Part shown: one piece after another, positions 546-21,789 of the stretch
Layout: each line of letters opens with the position of its first letter
Numbering within the stretch: position 1 is the stretch's first letter
NCBI GenBank assembly: GCA_017410375.1
Contig: JAFQQW010000055.1
Span: 1-53,123, forward strand
Length of the DNA: 53,123 bases
Source: Clostridia bacterium
GTDB lineage: Bacteria; Bacillota; Clostridia; RGIG6154
Reading direction: 5' to 3'
Translations under genes and position numbers: made by a program
Notes under the pieces: generated by a model
Database searches by the model: none
The model's input: the letters and a program-made list of their open reading frames with translations, nothing else
Told to the model about the DNA's origin: nothing

Positions 546-3254
546 TTACTCTACAATGATATAAACGAAACGCAGATTGGTCGTATTTGCATAAATCATA
601 ACCTTAGACGCACCTGCACCCGAATCAATCCAGTCCATGATGTATTCCTTGGTTGCTTCGGTGTTCAATCTCTTAGCTTCGGATTCTTTCTTGTCATACA
701 CAAAGAATTTTGTACCCGAACTGAAATTGATGGTGTATCGTGTGATTTCGTCGTTGATATTGCCTTCCAGATCCACTAAATCGCCATTTTCATTTACAGT
801 GCCAAGCGAAATAACGAAACGTTCTTCGTCACGGCTGTACACCGTACCGCAGATGCTGAGCTGTGTTGCGTTGGTTGCGGTTGTAACCGTTCCTTCTGTA
901 TAGTAGCGCTTGCCTGCCGCCTTGGAAGGATACAACAAGGTAAAGGATTCATCCTCCGGGTCAAAGATACGGTAAATGTCTTCGATAACGCCCTTGTTGT
1001 TCTGCTTGTAGCGAACAATATCACCAATCTTTGCACCGCTGCTGTTAAATACAGCACGGTTCTTGGTCTGACGGGTTACCTCTTTACCGTTTAAGATAAA
1101 CTTCAGCTCATAAACGTTTGTTCCTTCGCTGTTTTGTACAATATATGCATCGGTCAGCAACGCAGGATAGCTTGTTGTACTTACCGCCGCAGACCCATAC
1201 ACCAGGAGGTAATCTGCAACACCGGTAGCAGATACATCATACGCCTCAATATTGTATTTTCCGAGGTTAGAAAGTCTGCTGTAGGTTGCCACCACATAAT
1301 CTTCCGTGTTGCCACGGTCAGACGGAATCAAAATAACCTTTGACGTGTTGGTGCTTAAGGAAAGGTTCATATCCTTAAAGCTTCGGGTCGAACTCTGGTA
1401 TACCGCATCTTTGGTATAGCCCTTGCCCAGAACCAGCTCGCGGGCTTTGTCGCCATTTTCCACCATTGTATAGATTGCACTTACAACACTTCCGCTCAGT
1501 TCATATTTAATTAACTGGGAGGTTTCTGTACCTTTGGCATTTTCATCCTTGTTGGTGAGGTCACAGGTATCCTTTAACTCGTCTTCAATTTCATCCCAGT
1601 CATAACGGACACCGTTGATAGTCATGTTTTTGTCACAGTCGTAAATGCCGATTTTACCATCTAAGGTCAGCATTTTAATCTGTGTTTTTTCTGCATCTTC
1701 ATCAGGTCCTACTGCAATCAGGTAACCAACCTTTGCATTCAGCTCTGCACGAACCGAATACAGAATCTGGTTTTCTTCACTCAGATATACAGTTGCCTTA
1801 TCCCCTACCTGTAATGCTTCTGCAGGTGTTTTGCTCATGTATTCCACATAATCACTGCAGGCTTCATATGATTTGCCGGCTACATAATACACCTCGCCAT
1901 TTTCGGCAATTCTGGAAACTTCGCCGGTCTTTGTTGCGGTTACAATTGTTACTGTAATATTATTATCGTTTTCTGCAATCAGCAAAACATCTTCTTTTTT
2001 GATTGCGGAGAATTCTACTTCAGATTTGTTTTTATAGAACTTAACCTTAACCACATCCGGATTGAGCACAATCTTTTCGCTTGTGTTATATTTATTGGTT
2101 ACGGTTTTATTCAGAGAATCCAGTGCATTTACAACCACCACGCGGGTATCTTTGATTTCGATTAAGTCAATCACTTCATCATCATCACAGTCAATCATAC
2201 GAACCACACCGGTGTTGGGTTTGGAAATTCTGTCAAGATCGGTTGCAAGACCGTTATAAAGGAATACGGTTTGTCCGTTAAATGCAAGATACGAGGTTTT
2301 GGACGCATCCTCATTTTCCAGATAAGTAATACCGTTTTCGTCCAGGTCTTCCACCAAATCTCTGTGCACTTCATAAACAACGTTACGGTCGGACGGAGTG
2401 AAAGAAATCAAGATCTTTACATTGTTTTTAAGCTTGTAATAGAATTCACCGAAATAACCGAAGTATTTTTTTGCATCAGTTTCGCCCGCTGCATGAATTT
2501 CACCGTCAATTTCCACTTCGGTTGCACCGATACGTTTGCCGGTATGGGTAAATGCCTTGCCTGCAATACCGGTTACAACACCTTCATCTTTCACATAACC
2601 AAGCTTATCGGTTAAAATGTTATGACCGGGACGTACCTGATAATCGGTTTCGTTTACTTTTTCCATCAGGTCTACTTCCAGACAGTTGTATACAAGCTGT
2701 GCCACAATACCGCGGGGCGCGTTTTCACTGTAAGCCATAACCGCATCTTTAGTAATGCCCAAATCATTTGCCACTACCAGATAACCTGCAGGCCAGCCGC
2801 CGTTTTCGATGGCGCTGCTTTCATAACCCAATGCGCAAACAAGCATTTTTACAACCTGTTCATAAGTTACAGGATTATAAGGACCAAAGGTACCGTCGCC
2901 ATAGCCTGCGATAATGCCCATGTCATAGGCAACCTTAGTCGCATTTAAAATCCATTCATCACAGCTTTCGGGTGTAACATCTGTAAAGGGCAGATTATTC
3001 AAATCTGCTTTCAAATCGCTGACACCTAAAATTCTGGTTACGATAACGCTGAATTCCGCACGGGAAATCTCGTGGTTCGGACGGAATGCACCCGTACCTG
3101 CGTCACCTAAAATAATGCCGAAATCCGAAAGGACATCAATTGCTTCATAATATTCATGCGTTTCAAAAACATCGGTAAAGCTTGCGCCCATAGCCGATAT
3201 GCCACATGAAAACAGCAAAGACAGACAAAGAAGTATACAAAACAGTCTCTTCAT
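546..3254 (-). CDS. SLH-domain surface (S-layer-anchored) protein
   Basis: A 902-residue exported protein. Residues 1-24 are a Sec signal peptide with a probable cleavage after AMGA. Three S-layer-homology repeats follow, at about 26-75, 90-143 and 155-197. The first two begin with FTDV and carry GTGAFRPN and GDGTFGPY motifs; the third is degenerate. SLH triplets bind pyruvylated cell-wall polysaccharide, so the protein should sit on the outer face of the wall. The remaining 700 residues look beta-rich and contain no motif I recognise, so the surface function is unknown. The ATG at 3254 has a GAGGG ribosome site and a good sigma-A promoter upstream. The gene appears monocistronic. Confidence 0.85.
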   Translation of the reverse strand: MKRLFCILLCLSLLFSCGISAMGASFTDVFETHEYYEAIDVLSDFGIILGDAGTGAFRPNHEISRAEFSVIVTRILGVSDLKADLNNLPFTDVTPESCDEWILNATKVAYDMGIIAGYGDGTFGPYNPVTYEQVVKMLVCALGYESSAIENGGWPAGYLVVANDLGITKDAVMAYSENAPRGIVAQLVYNCLEVDLMEKVNETDYQVRPGHNILTDKLGYVKDEGVVTGIAGKAFTHTGKRIGATEVEIDGEIHAAGETDAKKYFGYFGEFYYKLKNNVKILISFTPSDRNVVYEVHRDLVEDLDENGITYLENEDASKTSYLAFNGQTVFLYNGLATDLDRISKPNTGVVRMIDCDDDEVIDLIEIKDTRVVVVNALDSLNKTVTNKYNTSEKIVLNPDVVKVKFYKNKSEVEFSAIKKEDVLLIAENDNNITVTIVTATKTGEVSRIAENGEVYYVAGKSYEACSDYVEYMSKTPAEALQVGDKATVYLSEENQILYSVRAELNAKVGYLIAVGPDEDAEKTQIKMLTLDGKIGIYDCDKNMTINGVRYDWDEIEDELKDTCDLTNKDENAKGTETSQLIKYELSGSVVSAIYTMVENGDKARELVLGKGYTKDAVYQSSTRSFKDMNLSLSTNTSKVILIPSDRGNTEDYVVATYSRLSNLGKYNIEAYDVSATGVADYLLVYGSAAVSTTSYPALLTDAYIVQNSEGTNVYELKFILNGKEVTRQTKNRAVFNSSGAKIGDIVRYKQNNKGVIEDIYRIFDPEDESFTLLYPSKAAGKRYYTEGTVTTATNATQLSICGTVYSRDEERFVISLGTVNENGDLVDLEGNINDEITRYTINFSSGTKFFVYDKKESEAKRLNTEATKEYIMDWIDSGAGASKVMIYANTTNLRFVYIIVE

Positions 3255-17768: not shown

Positions 17769-17789
17769 AAAGGTGTGGAGGTGAGAAAT

Positions 17790-18590
17790 GTGTTTAATTC
17801 CATAGAGGTTAAATTTTGCGACAGGCGAATTGTTGACAAGACCTGGTGGTGTGTTGCAAAGCCCAGCTTTCGTCCGATTTTTCATATCGGGCAAAACCGC
17901 CTGCACTATGTACACAGTGGCAGTCCCACCATTTACTGTGACGAAAAGCCCTACACGTTAGAGCCGGGTAAGCTGTATCTTTTCCCGCAGAATCTGTCCT
18001 TTCGCGGTGAGGTTGCGGACGGAACAGAATATGACCATACTGCGCTTGATTTTCTGACCTTTCCGCCGGTCCACATGTCAAAGCCGTTAGAAATATCGCT
18101 TTCCGCCTCTCCCCTGCTCCAACCTGCTACAGAAATCTGTGCTAAGCTGATTGCGCTGCATCCCATGGCGCGATACGGGACCCGAAACGAATACAGCCCG
18201 CTGATTGAAAGCTACGGCATGAATCTTTTAAAGCTGATTCATGAGGTGTATCCCATTGAAACGATTTCCGATCCGTTTATCACAGACATTTTAAACTATA
18301 TTCACGAAAACTACTACAAAGAACTGCGCTTAGAAGAGCTTTCTGCGCGCACCAATTACCAGAAGCATTTCTTTATCCGTAAATTCAAGCAGATTATGGG
18401 GGTACCCCCTTACAAATATATCAAGGACTATCGCATGAGCACTGCTTTTTATCTGATTCAGACTGGAAAGTTCAGCATTGCACAGGTGGCAGAGCGGGTC
18501 GGCTACAGCGACACGTCCGGCTTTTCACACGCCTTTAAGCAACAATTCGGCATTTATCCCAACGAAGTTTCCAAAACAGTTTTTCTGTAA
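17790..18590 (+). CDS. AraC-family regulator, first of three tandem paralogues
   Basis: A 266-residue regulator. The N-terminal cupin-like ligand domain (about 1-150) contains LHYVHSGSPTIYCDEKPY and LEPGKLYLFPQNLS. The C-terminal AraC double helix-turn-helix (about 165-262) contains LSARTNYQKHFFIRKFKQ and VAERVGYSDTSGFSHAFKQ. The start is GTG at 17790: both paralogues start with MFNSI at the equivalent place, and GGAGGTG lies seven bases upstream. The ligand is unknown. It is co-transcribed with the next two genes, 18 bp apart. Confidence 0.88.
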   Translation: MFNSIEVKFCDRRIVDKTWWCVAKPSFRPIFHIGQNRLHYVHSGSPTIYCDEKPYTLEPGKLYLFPQNLSFRGEVADGTEYDHTALDFLTFPPVHMSKPLEISLSASPLLQPATEICAKLIALHPMARYGTRNEYSPLIESYGMNLLKLIHEVYPIETISDPFITDILNYIHENYYKELRLEELSARTNYQKHFFIRKFKQIMGVPPYKYIKDYRMSTAFYLIQTGKFSIAQVAERVGYSDTSGFSHAFKQQFGIYPNEVSKTVFL

Positions 18591-18608
18591 TTTACGGGAG
18601 GTGAAAAC

Positions 18609-19406
18609 ATGTTCAATTCCATAGCACTCAGATTCTACGGAAGAGACAAAAGTGCATCCGACTGGTGGCTGGCTTCATTGCCGGCACAGCATCCGAAATT
18701 TCGCTTTTTGCCCAGCCGTCTGCATTATGTGCACAGTGGCGCACCCACTGTGTATTGTGGTGACAAAGCATACAAATTAGAACCCGGTAAACTGTATTTC
18801 TTTCCGCAAAATCTTTCCTTACGCGCATCGATGGAGGCGGGAGATATTTACGACCACACCGTGCTGACCTTTTTTATGTATCCACCCACGCGTATGTCTG
18901 AGGCTTTGGTAATTGACCTTTCCGTTTCACCGCTTTTAAAGAGCGCCACTGATGTGGTTATGCAATTAGCAGAGAAATATCCTATGACGGATTATACTGA
19001 GCAACACACGCACACGCCTCTGATTGAAAGCTATTGTGTTAATTTGCTGAAGCTGATTGACGAGCATATATCCCCCATCGAAACGGTTTCTTCTAAAGCC
19101 ATTGCAGATGCGCTGAGCTATATCCACGAAAACTATCAGAAGGAGCTGACGGTAGAAGAGCTTTCTGCGCGCACCAATTACCAAAAGCATGCTTTTATGC
19201 GAAAATTTAAGCAGATTATGGGCGTTTCGCCTTACAAATATATTAAGGATTACCGCTTAAGCAACGCGTATTATCTGTTGCGGACGGGTAATTTTACCAT
19301 TGCAGAAGTGGCAGAGCAGATTGGCTATAACAACAGCACAAGCTTTTCCCATGCTTTCAAACAGCATTTTGGCATCTATCCTAAAGATGCCATGAAGTCT
19401 GTTTAA
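18609..19406 (+). CDS. AraC-family regulator, second tandem paralogue
   Basis: A 265-residue paralogue of the preceding gene with the same architecture: a cupin-like sensor with RLHYVHSGAPTVYCGDKAY, and a C-terminal double helix-turn-helix with LSARTNYQKHAFMRKFKQ and VAEQIGYNNSTSFSHAFKQ. The recognition helices are close to those of its neighbours, so the three may bind related operators. ATG with a GGGAGGTG site. The protein is complete. Confidence 0.88.
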   Translation: MFNSIALRFYGRDKSASDWWLASLPAQHPKFRFLPSRLHYVHSGAPTVYCGDKAYKLEPGKLYFFPQNLSLRASMEAGDIYDHTVLTFFMYPPTRMSEALVIDLSVSPLLKSATDVVMQLAEKYPMTDYTEQHTHTPLIESYCVNLLKLIDEHISPIETVSSKAIADALSYIHENYQKELTVEELSARTNYQKHAFMRKFKQIMGVSPYKYIKDYRLSNAYYLLRTGNFTIAEVAEQIGYNNSTSFSHAFKQHFGIYPKDAMKSV

Positions 19407-19426
19407 ATCCCACACGGAGGTAGAAA

Positions 19427-20236
19427 ATGTTCAATTCCATAGTACTACGATACTGCGAAAAAAAGCGAAAAACATCCACCGACTGGTGGTTGGCATCGTT
19501 ACCTGCAAATGACTTAAAATTCCGTTTTGTTCCGGGCAGACTGCATTATGTACACAAAGGTTCGCCCACCATTTACTGCGATGAAAAGCCTTATAAGCTG
19601 GAACCGGGCAAGCTGTATTTCTTTCCGCAGAATCTTTCGCTCCGGGCAGAAATGGAAGAAGGCTCGTTTTATGAGCATACCGCCTTGGACTTCTTTGTCT
19701 ATCCGCCCACACGCATGACAGAGGCTTTAGTGATTGACCCCTCCGAGACACCTCTGATTCAAAAAGCACTCGACATTTTACTCTTGTTTGCAGAGCAATA
19801 TCCAAAGAAAAATGTGAACGACCATCACGAATACGTTCCGCTGATTGAGAATTATTGTGTCAATCTGCTGAAGCTGATTGACAAGCTGATTTCGCCCATT
19901 GAAACGGTTTCTTCGCCGTTTATTGCCGACGTTTTGAGCTATATTCACAAAAACTATCAAAAGGAGCTGACAATAGAAGAGCTTTCGGCACTTACCAATT
20001 ACCAAAAGCATGTTTTTATACGCAAATTCAAGCAGATTATGGGTGTTCCGCCTTATAAGTACATCCGAACCTACCGCTTAAATACCGCTTATCAATTGAT
20101 CCGGGCAGGAAGCCACAGCATTTCGCAGGTGGCTATGCAGGTAGGCTACGAGGATTCCACCAGCTTTTCTCACGCCTTTAAACAGCATTTCGGCATGCAT
20201 CCTACCGAGGTTTCCAACAGACCGTCCGACAATTAA
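19427..20236 (+). CDS. AraC-family regulator, third tandem paralogue
   Basis: A 269-residue third copy. The sensor segment RLHYVHKGSPTIYCDEKPY and the helix-turn-helix segment LSALTNYQKHVFIRKFKQ parallel the other two; the C-terminus is slightly longer. No enzyme or transporter gene lies in the operon, so the regulated pathway must be elsewhere. A strong bidirectional terminator follows. Confidence 0.88.
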   Translation: MFNSIVLRYCEKKRKTSTDWWLASLPANDLKFRFVPGRLHYVHKGSPTIYCDEKPYKLEPGKLYFFPQNLSLRAEMEEGSFYEHTALDFFVYPPTRMTEALVIDPSETPLIQKALDILLLFAEQYPKKNVNDHHEYVPLIENYCVNLLKLIDKLISPIETVSSPFIADVLSYIHKNYQKELTIEELSALTNYQKHVFIRKFKQIMGVPPYKYIRTYRLNTAYQLIRAGSHSISQVAMQVGYEDSTSFSHAFKQHFGMHPTEVSNRPSDN

Positions 20237-20267
20237 AAAAAGACCGCGCCGCGGTCTTTTTTTAATT
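20231..20267. terminator. Bidirectional terminator between the AraC triplet and the acyltransferase-like gene
   Basis: An almost perfect palindrome, with a stem of A-run plus GACCGC against GCGGTC plus T-run around a three-base loop. It can serve the plus-strand AraC operon and the minus-strand gene that ends at 20262. Confidence 0.9.
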
Positions 20268-21170
20268 GTCCCGTTTATTGTTTACAATCTTTTCACCGTC
20301 AAATAAAATGACGCCTTTTCCCCAGCCTGCTATCTTTCCATCGTTTAAAAATTTGATAAAATTCTTTTGCAGGGTTGTGTTTGCAGAAAGCTTGCTTGTG
20401 TCACCGTCGTAAGGCTTTCCGAACACCGCACGGGCATTTAAAAACTCCCCTGCCTTGCCAAAGCTTTGGTCTATGATATCAAAATCCTCCATAAAATCGG
20501 CAAGATTGGAACCTTTTGGAAAAACCTCTCTGTAACCCGGAAAAATCAGCCAACTTTCGCAAATAATCGGCAGATATTCTCCCTTTTTCCTGCCAAAATA
20601 TGCAAAGGCTTTTTTGTAGGAATCTATCCGCGCTTCTCTCGGCATAGGTCCCGAGGACGGAATGTGAAAATTTACCACTTCATCATCGGAATTAATCTTA
20701 AAGTCACCCCATTCATAAGTAAGCCCCTCAAAAAACGGTTTTGTGTGGTACTGAAATCTGCCCAGTGCCACAATTTCCGCTCTGAAAAAGATGGCGTACC
20801 ACCAAAAGGGTATAACCCCCAGAACACCGACTTTCTCTTTGCATTCATCAAGCTTATACTTAAAATCTTTTGCCGTATCATAAAAAATCTCTTCGCTTAT
20901 GCCCTTTTTTAAGTAGGCTTCACGCAATTTTTCCAAGTTGGACAGCAAAAACAGCATGTCTAAGCTACGCGAATCCATATCGTATTTGGTCGCCATCGGT
21001 TTTAATTTTTCCTGCAAGGTAATGCTTTCTGCTCTGTTTTGGCAAAACGAAAATTCTTCGCCAAGCTTTGTAAAAAGGGCACGGTCTGCCTCGTCCAATC
21101 CATTGTAACTGTTTAAAAAGAAGTTGATCTCCGTCTTATCAAAACCGATTTTTCGTAATGTTTCTTCCAT
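20262..21170 (-). CDS. Acyltransferase-like protein (DUF5596 / NAT_N plus GNAT_C type)
   Basis: A 302-residue cytoplasmic protein. The N-terminal helical half and a C-terminal GNAT-like half match what I know as the DUF5596 family (NAT_N and GNAT_C domains). Core segments are LGRFQYHTKPF, VNFHIPSSGPM, SYKKAFAYF, ICESWLIFPGY and the C-terminal GWGKGVILFDGEKI. The same order of segments recurs in the C-terminal half of the fusion protein at 34984, so the two are paralogous modules. Substrate and acyl donor are unknown. I chose the ATG at 21170, with AGAGGGG eight bases upstream; the open frame extends 17 codons further without a ribosome site. It has its own terminator, and the small gene upstream ends in another. 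Confidence 0.72.
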   Translation of the reverse strand: MEETLRKIGFDKTEINFFLNSYNGLDEADRALFTKLGEEFSFCQNRAESITLQEKLKPMATKYDMDSRSLDMLFLLSNLEKLREAYLKKGISEEIFYDTAKDFKYKLDECKEKVGVLGVIPFWWYAIFFRAEIVALGRFQYHTKPFFEGLTYEWGDFKINSDDEVVNFHIPSSGPMPREARIDSYKKAFAYFGRKKGEYLPIICESWLIFPGYREVFPKGSNLADFMEDFDIIDQSFGKAGEFLNARAVFGKPYDGDTSKLSANTTLQKNFIKFLNDGKIAGWGKGVILFDGEKIVNNKRDN

Positions 21171-21222: not shown

Positions 21223-21252
21223 AAAAAAAGACCGCGATGCGGTCTTTTTTTA
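21223..21252 (-). terminator. Terminator of the 82-residue protein gene
   Basis: A stem AAAAGACCGC/GCGGTCTTTT with a three-base loop and T-run sits at the stop codon of the small gene. Its arms are nearly identical to those of the terminator at 20231. Confidence 0.88.
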
Positions 21253-21498
21253 ATACAGCTTAATTTCGTATTTGTCTATGAGGCGCAATAGCTTTTCCAC
21301 CTTTTTGTCATTGTCTAATTCTTCGCTTTGTACGATTTTTTCTACTGTTTTGAAAAAGTTCTCGTAGGCTTCGTTCCGAATGCGGTCAAAATCCTTATTC
21401 TGCATATATTTCCACACCGCATCGGTGATGTATGTCCTTATCATGCGGTTTGTGATGTCTATGCGAAAATCTTCCTCATTATAAAAAATCTCCGACAT
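21250..21498 (-). CDS. Small helical protein of unknown function behind a structured leader
   Basis: An 82-residue protein, highly charged and predicted helical, with no membrane segment and no motif I recognise. It begins MSEIFYNEEDFRIDITNRM. The ATG at 21498 follows a perfect AAGGAGG at good spacing; an in-frame extension to 21531 would run back through that site and the terminator, so it is rejected. The only promoter that can serve it lies at 21688-21716, upstream of a long structured RNA that ends in a terminator 15 bp before this start codon. Expression therefore probably depends on read-through or antitermination. A terminator follows the gene, so it is expressed alone. Confidence 0.7.
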   Translation of the reverse strand: MSEIFYNEEDFRIDITNRMIRTYITDAVWKYMQNKDFDRIRNEAYENFFKTVEKIVQSEELDNDKKVEKLLRLIDKYEIKLY

Positions 21499-21512
21499 CT
21501 CTTTTTCCTCCT

Positions 21513-21546
21513 TAAATAAAAAAGTACGCAACCGAAGCTGCGTACT
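21513..21546 (-). terminator. Intrinsic terminator of the structured leader RNA
   Basis: On the minus strand a perfect 8-bp stem AGTACGCA/TGCGTACT with loop GCTTCGGT is followed by TTTTTATTTA. It ends only a few bases before the AGGAGG of the small gene, which is the arrangement of a transcription attenuator. Confidence 0.88.
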
Positions 21547-21682
21547 AAAAAGCGCAGAGCTCCGGTGATGTTTTGCGATAACAACTCATGAAACCCTAAA
21601 AAAGAGATTTATGACCAAACAGAGGTACGCTTTTTAACAATAGCATATCTCTTTTTCAGGATTATATTAAGTTGTTATCGCA
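21513..21682 (-). ncRNA. Structured leader or small RNA, candidate riboswitch/attenuator or 6S-like RNA
   Basis: About 165 nt from a good promoter to an intrinsic terminator, with no gene inside. Pairing on the minus strand: a 13-bp closing stem (21670-21682 with 21574-21586); an open internal loop of 9 and 8 nt whose 5' side holds UAAUAUAAU; then a 14-bp stem (21647-21660 with 21595-21608); then a 38-nt apical region. Eight apical bases (21628-21635, AAAAAGCG) can pair with CGCUUUUU at 21547-21554 just before the terminator, and overlapping apical bases GCGUAC (21625-21630) can pair with the terminator arm (21540-21545), excluding the terminator. Stem, bubble, stem resembles 6S RNA. The terminator abutting a ribosome site argues for cis regulation. 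I do not recognise a known riboswitch core. Confidence 0.7.
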
Positions 21683-21687
21683 TCTTT

Positions 21688-21716
21688 AGTATACCACAAA
21701 TTTCAAGCAATTACAA
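21688..21716 (-). promoter_or_regulatory. Promoter of the structured leader RNA
   Basis: On the minus strand TTGTAA and TATACT with a 17-bp spacer; the expected start is near 21681, at the beginning of the closing stem. It lies just after the ppdK terminator. Confidence 0.8.
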
Positions 21717-21772: not shown

Positions 21773-21789
21773 TACTGTTTAAGTTAGAA

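Follow-up and report, generated by a model that had tools for sequence, protein, structure and literature searches.

Within the window, the whole 53,123-nucleotide stretch of Clostridia DNA analysed here, the minus strand carries a structured leader RNA in front of a gene for an 82-residue helical protein (21250–21498, start at 21498). Transcription is predicted to begin at about 21681, from a promoter at 21688–21716 made up of TTGTAA, a 17-nt spacer and TATACT with an extended TGG element (extended −10 TGGTATACT), as the preliminary description of this DNA had proposed. The closing stem, the second stem and the apical region named in that description were likewise located by folding and coordinates. 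In particular, P1 pairs GCGATAACAACT with AGTTGTTATCGC (21681–21670 and 21586–21575) and is lengthened in the minimum-energy fold; an asymmetric internal bulge (21661–21669) overlaps its end; and P2, of 14 bp (5′ strand 21660–21647, 3′ strand 21608–21595), carries a 38-nt apical region (21646–21609). The leader ends in an intrinsic terminator (21518–21546; 10-bp stem and U tract, −15.1 kcal/mol), which was correctly placed just before the small gene, although its distance from the start codon is about 19 nt and not 15. The arrangement is that of an attenuator, with an intrinsic terminator before the ribosome binding site of a gene (AAGGAGG, 21507–21513). No other promoter fits between the terminator and the 82-codon gene, as had also been claimed, and because the upstream ppdK-type gene has a terminator of its own (at 21773–21741) and a further terminator (at 21251–21223) comes after the small gene, the RNA and the 82-codon gene form a separate transcription unit. 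The leader (21681–21518) folds with −66.2 kcal/mol compared with −39.1 kcal/mol for shuffled sequence (z −6.97), and none of 200 shuffles was as good. The next gene downstream (20265–21170, minus strand) codes for an acyltransferase in which Pfam recognises the domains NAT_N and GNAT_C. On the plus strand, at 17775–20236, three AraC-type regulator genes that resemble one another stand in a row (271, 265 and 269 aa) and appear to be a local triplication.

Naming the 82-residue protein through Pfam, NCBIfam and the PDB was unsuccessful: no family in the first two matched, and the predicted model, a three-helix fold (pLDDT 79), had no meaningful PDB match. Its paralogues in this genome (three of three) all lie directly downstream of a copy of the RNA, as does its G091 homologue; a fifth, weak homologue is not preceded by the RNA.

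When the window was searched against Rfam 15, no family reached its gathering threshold. A permissive Rfam search of the locus returned sub-threshold, unrelated matches only. There was no Rfam 15 match on the element at 20 further loci carrying the RNA and no Rfam match on it at the related loci L002–L005, and a permissive search with the best-scoring member, L037, gave one chance match on the opposite strand and none on the element. A founding set of 12 homologous RNAs, obtained from BLAST of the locus and one related copy, was used to build a covariance model, R1. In this genome R1 gave 17 hits at E ≤ 1, and for about 14 of these E was below 0.005. Of 391 genomes from the same class, at least 92 had a match, as had at least 53 of 222 genera; these are lower bounds since the best seven candidates per genome were scored. 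Those carriers that have names come from gut and rumen, their assemblies bearing the labels Clostridia, Oscillospiraceae, Clostridiales or Ruminococcus; in a phylum-wide sample of 299 genomes, this genome alone matched at E ≤ 1e-4. An RNA present in about a quarter of the sampled Clostridia genomes, often in several copies, is thus missing from Rfam 15.

Members of the family share an order of parts: promoter, P1, a bulge with consensus nnAAnUnAAUA, P2, hairpin P3, CUYU in the apical loop, GUGUnGCRRC after P1, tail and terminator. The 3′ side of P3 reads G(G/U)AAAA(A)RYGYA before the CUYU, and the tail ends in UGCGUUUUU before the terminator, which is present in nearly all members. Few unpaired positions are conserved, and these, which are rich in A/U, fall in the bulge (A 91%, A 94% and U 92% at three positions among about 150 members), in the loop and 3′ of P1, where GYRRC occurs in 131 of 139 members. 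Upstream of the RNA an extended −10 element, TGnTATAAT with at least 5 of 6 matches, was found in 130 of 149 members, compared with 13 in shuffled sequence.

Five strands of the window RNA have alternative or overlapping partners. Strand 1 (21641–21646) is the 5′ strand of P3, AUGCUA, opposite GCGU of the loop. Strand 2 (21620–21635), the apical AAAAAGCGUACCUCUG, can by duplex energy pair with strand 1 to form P3 or with strand 3 to form a pseudoknot. Strand 3 (21547–21567), the tail CACCGGAGCUCUGCGCUUUUU, can in turn pair with the loop (2:3) or with the 5′ arm of the terminator (3:4). Strand 4 (21532–21546), comprising that 5′ arm and part of the terminator loop, is common to antiterminator and terminator, and strand 5 (21532–21523) completes the terminator (4:5). 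The 8-bp pairing that had been noticed between the apical region, AAAAAGCG, and bases adjoining the terminator, CGCUUUUU, belongs to the loop–tail pseudoknot, which exists and covaries. The antiterminator pairing in the window is CCGGAGCU[CU]GCG/CGCAGCUUCGG, joining the tail at 21565–21553 to the terminator 5′ arm at 21542–21532.

The preliminary description had proposed that homologues be examined for compensatory change, which we did by setting the duplex energy of strands taken from one member against that of strands swapped between members, using 139 distinct members. By this measure, in which duplex energies ignore pseudoknot loop penalties, the loop–tail pairing (2:3) gave −19.0 kcal/mol for own strands versus −14.0 kcal/mol for others (z −19), and the pairing of the tail with the terminator 5′ arm (3:4) gave −18.7 versus −13.2 kcal/mol (z −20); in neither case was any of 20000 permutations as good. 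P3 (1:2) and the terminator (4:5) likewise favoured own strands (z −15.9 and z −26), and each half of the loop–tail helix passed by itself (z −14 and z −12). Control pairings of the 5′ segment with the tail, of the 5′ segment with the terminator arm and of the loop with the terminator arm gave z of about 0. The last of these bears on a 6-bp pairing that had been suggested between the apical region and the terminator arm: it can form in the window (GCGUAC/GUACGC) but does not covary (z 0.1). As a guard against relatedness, we limited the swaps for 1:2, 2:3 and 3:4 to the eight nearest relatives. Own pairing was still better by 1.7–1.9 kcal/mol (p 1e-9 to 1e-13; 1e-13 for 2:3 and 2.5e-13 for 3:4), two controls were null, and the third, the P3 5′ strand with the tail, went slightly in the opposite direction (p 0.03). 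Compensatory changes can also be seen by eye: AAAAAGGCG stands opposite CGCUUUUUU where elsewhere AAAAAGCG stands opposite CGUUUUUU, in L054 ACUUCGAU stands opposite AUCGAAGU, and in L186 GACUUC stands opposite GAAGUC. Taken as comparative evidence, these findings establish four covarying pairings and, through 3:4, point to a conserved antiterminator that is mutually exclusive with the terminator. In many members the 3′ strand of P1 is also complementary to the 3′ arm of the terminator (own versus other z −7.4; in L037, AAAAAGUGUGUAGC and GCUACGCACUUUUU, respectively), a possible sixth competing pairing that is absent from the window copy.

The covariation of the four helices means that strands 1–5 form a chain with two consistent states, 1:2 with 3:4 and 2:3 with 4:5. 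It also revises the role first given to the apical loop. The loop had been taken for the antiterminator; the covarying antiterminator is predicted to consist of the tail strand and the terminator 5′ arm, with the loop competing for the tail, so that on comparative grounds the loop is an anti-antiterminator. Because it competes for the same tail strand as the antiterminator, loop–tail pairing should favour termination. The proposal that this is a cis-regulatory RNA equipped to alternate between terminator and antiterminator is supported, and the window RNA probably belongs to a new family of transcription attenuators that act in cis. The module would be self-contained, with a putative sigma-A promoter bearing an extended −10, a leader of about 160 nt and a terminator just 5′ of the ribosome site. 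During read-through, the apical loop would be held in P3 and the terminator 5′ arm would be paired to the tail. For termination, the tail would be captured by the loop as a long pseudoknot and the terminator would form. An input, whether a metabolite, a protein or some other factor, may act near the P1–P2 bulge and the A-rich loop to set the balance. The computed energies of antiterminator and terminator in the window lie close together, with −14.3 kcal/mol for the antiterminator as drawn (about −14 to −18 kcal/mol overall) versus −15.1 for the terminator; the 2:3 duplex of the window has −17.5 kcal/mol. In computed folding of the nascent transcript, the best fold at 156 nt is an antiterminator-type hairpin, and the terminator takes over from 162 nt. 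We infer that such switching occurs in cells, that it serves regulation, and that an input sets the balance and the direction favoured.

The surroundings of other members are consistent with action in cis. A ribosome site and open frame follow 10–30 nt after the U tract in 81 of the 145 members with enough flank, compared with 0 of 62 in a divergent-side control; in 32 of 148 no gene could be recognised within 150 nt, and some of this gene-less fifth may act otherwise. Dozens of different genes are found downstream, among them genes for SLOG/YpsA-like proteins, for BspA-type LRR and SLH surface proteins (SLH, 9 of 112), for lipoproteins and copper-amine-oxidase-N proteins, and for small unknown proteins of several families, and the regulon survey found no shared pathway among them that would name a ligand. 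The RNA precedes 8 of 29 related SLOG gene loci; as SLOG genes thus occur both with and without it, the RNA is an exchangeable module whose link to SLOG is optional.

What might set the balance is a matter on which two readings deserve weight. A ligand-binding riboswitch, in which the P1–P2 bulge and the A-rich P3 and loop make up an aptamer and a small molecule chooses between P3 and the pseudoknot, is a plausible reading that we would place somewhat below an even chance. It accords with bulge nucleotides that are unpaired yet conserved, with the GYRRC motif, with a pseudoknot that overlaps the expression platform, with the occurrence of tandem copies, and with a regulon that is scattered and includes many surface proteins. 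However, the loop and tail sequences vary greatly while their pairing is kept, conserved positions outside the helices are scarce and rich in A/U, and no metabolite is indicated by gene association. The fuller version of this idea, that the family is a novel class of riboswitch, abundant among uncultured Clostridia of gut and rumen, in which a five-strand pseudoknot switch answers one common signal and governs a scattered regulon of surface, SLOG and small-protein genes, we put forward only tentatively. The second reading is an attenuator under the control of a protein or of elongation speed, in which an RNA-binding protein, NusA/NusG pausing or temperature would set the balance. That same scarcity of conserved, A/U-rich unpaired positions would suit it, as would two nearly isoenergetic states and a diverse regulon, but the RNA is not linked to any candidate protein gene, and we regard this reading as possible and slightly less likely than the first.

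The remaining explanations concern whether the RNA is an attenuator of this kind at all. Members might be free-standing small RNAs, acting in trans and finishing at the terminator, with downstream expression arising from chance read-through, and both the near-universal terminator and the fifth of members without an adjacent gene would fit. The fixed distance to a ribosome site and gene argues against this, however, and a covarying antiterminator would be needless in a plain small RNA; we consider it unlikely. Many copies per genome and tandem duplicates could suggest a MITE-like inverted repeat that is mobile, but this is very improbable given that the copies are divergent with compensatory changes and hold a fixed position before genes, that searches of phage and plasmid records brought up no similar DNA and that an exact-pattern scan of viral contigs found no match. 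Ribosome-mediated attenuation through a leader peptide, which had been raised because the window has an ATG frame of 16 codons (MLLLKSVPLFGHKSLF), is rejected, since that frame has no Shine-Dalgarno sequence and is not conserved, and an ATG frame of 8–50 codons with a ribosome site occurs in the leader of only 3 of 150 members. The suggested 6S-like RNA, which shares the stem-bubble-stem shape, is rejected too: the covariance model of 6S RNA (RF00013) has no match at the locus, the true 6S RNA of this genome lies elsewhere, above the Rfam cut-off (C16:58463-58652, 75.8 bits), and the present RNA occurs in many copies per genome.

Attenuation as a class of mechanism is already known; neither the family nor the architecture in which a loop disarms the antiterminator turned up in Rfam or the literature searched. 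Trp-type attenuators, with their 1:2, 2:3 and 3:4 logic, and transcriptional riboswitches resemble this RNA in having overlapping, exclusive helices and an intrinsic terminator that precedes the site of ribosome binding. Unlike classical attenuators, however, it has no apparent leader peptide, relies on a decisive loop-to-tail pseudoknot that is predicted to capture the antiterminator strand, brings its own promoter, and occurs in many copies per genome before unrelated genes. From 6S RNA, whose outline is similar, it differs in its pseudoknot, antiterminator and copy number. Skipping-rope RNA (RF02924) is also a structured small RNA of Clostridia; its consensus differs, and its model had no match at the window locus. 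A search of the literature for an earlier description brought up one possible relative, the SLH motif, a riboswitch candidate of Stav et al. 2019 (PMC6429828). As its published account describes it, this motif has 80 examples and lies in Clostridia before genes for SLH-domain proteins (about 60%) and proteins of unknown function; it also extends to Synergistaceae and Negativicutes. SLH genes are common to both RNAs, and the two are set apart by description only, so that some overlap is possible. If the family is as proposed, it would single out surface proteins and small unknown proteins of gut bacteria as candidates for joint regulation and offer a handle on a common signal, and its covariation-supported architecture would be one in which a hairpin loop disarms an antiterminator.

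Several loci carry further features. c-di-GMP riboswitches often sit before surface-protein genes in Clostridia; they differ from this RNA in sequence and structure, and at L052 a c-di-GMP-I element (1343–1422, plus strand), recognised separately by Rfam, is separated by a few hundred bases from an opposite-strand copy of the RNA. A degenerate remnant of the RNA occurs at L028:1501-1551 (own genome C61:26221-26271), and its tail shares 98% identity over 51 nt with the copy in another genus (G003), which hints at recent exchange. At ten loci (L040, L041, L043, L044, L065, L119, L164, L183, L188 and L195) a same-strand pair of copies stands in tandem, the two within 700 nt, a likeness to some riboswitches. 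At L040 (1099–1280 and 1501–1682; C57:4315-4898 of its own genome), the RNA and the start of a SLOG gene are duplicated in tandem, the first SLOG copy ending abruptly after about 20 codons.
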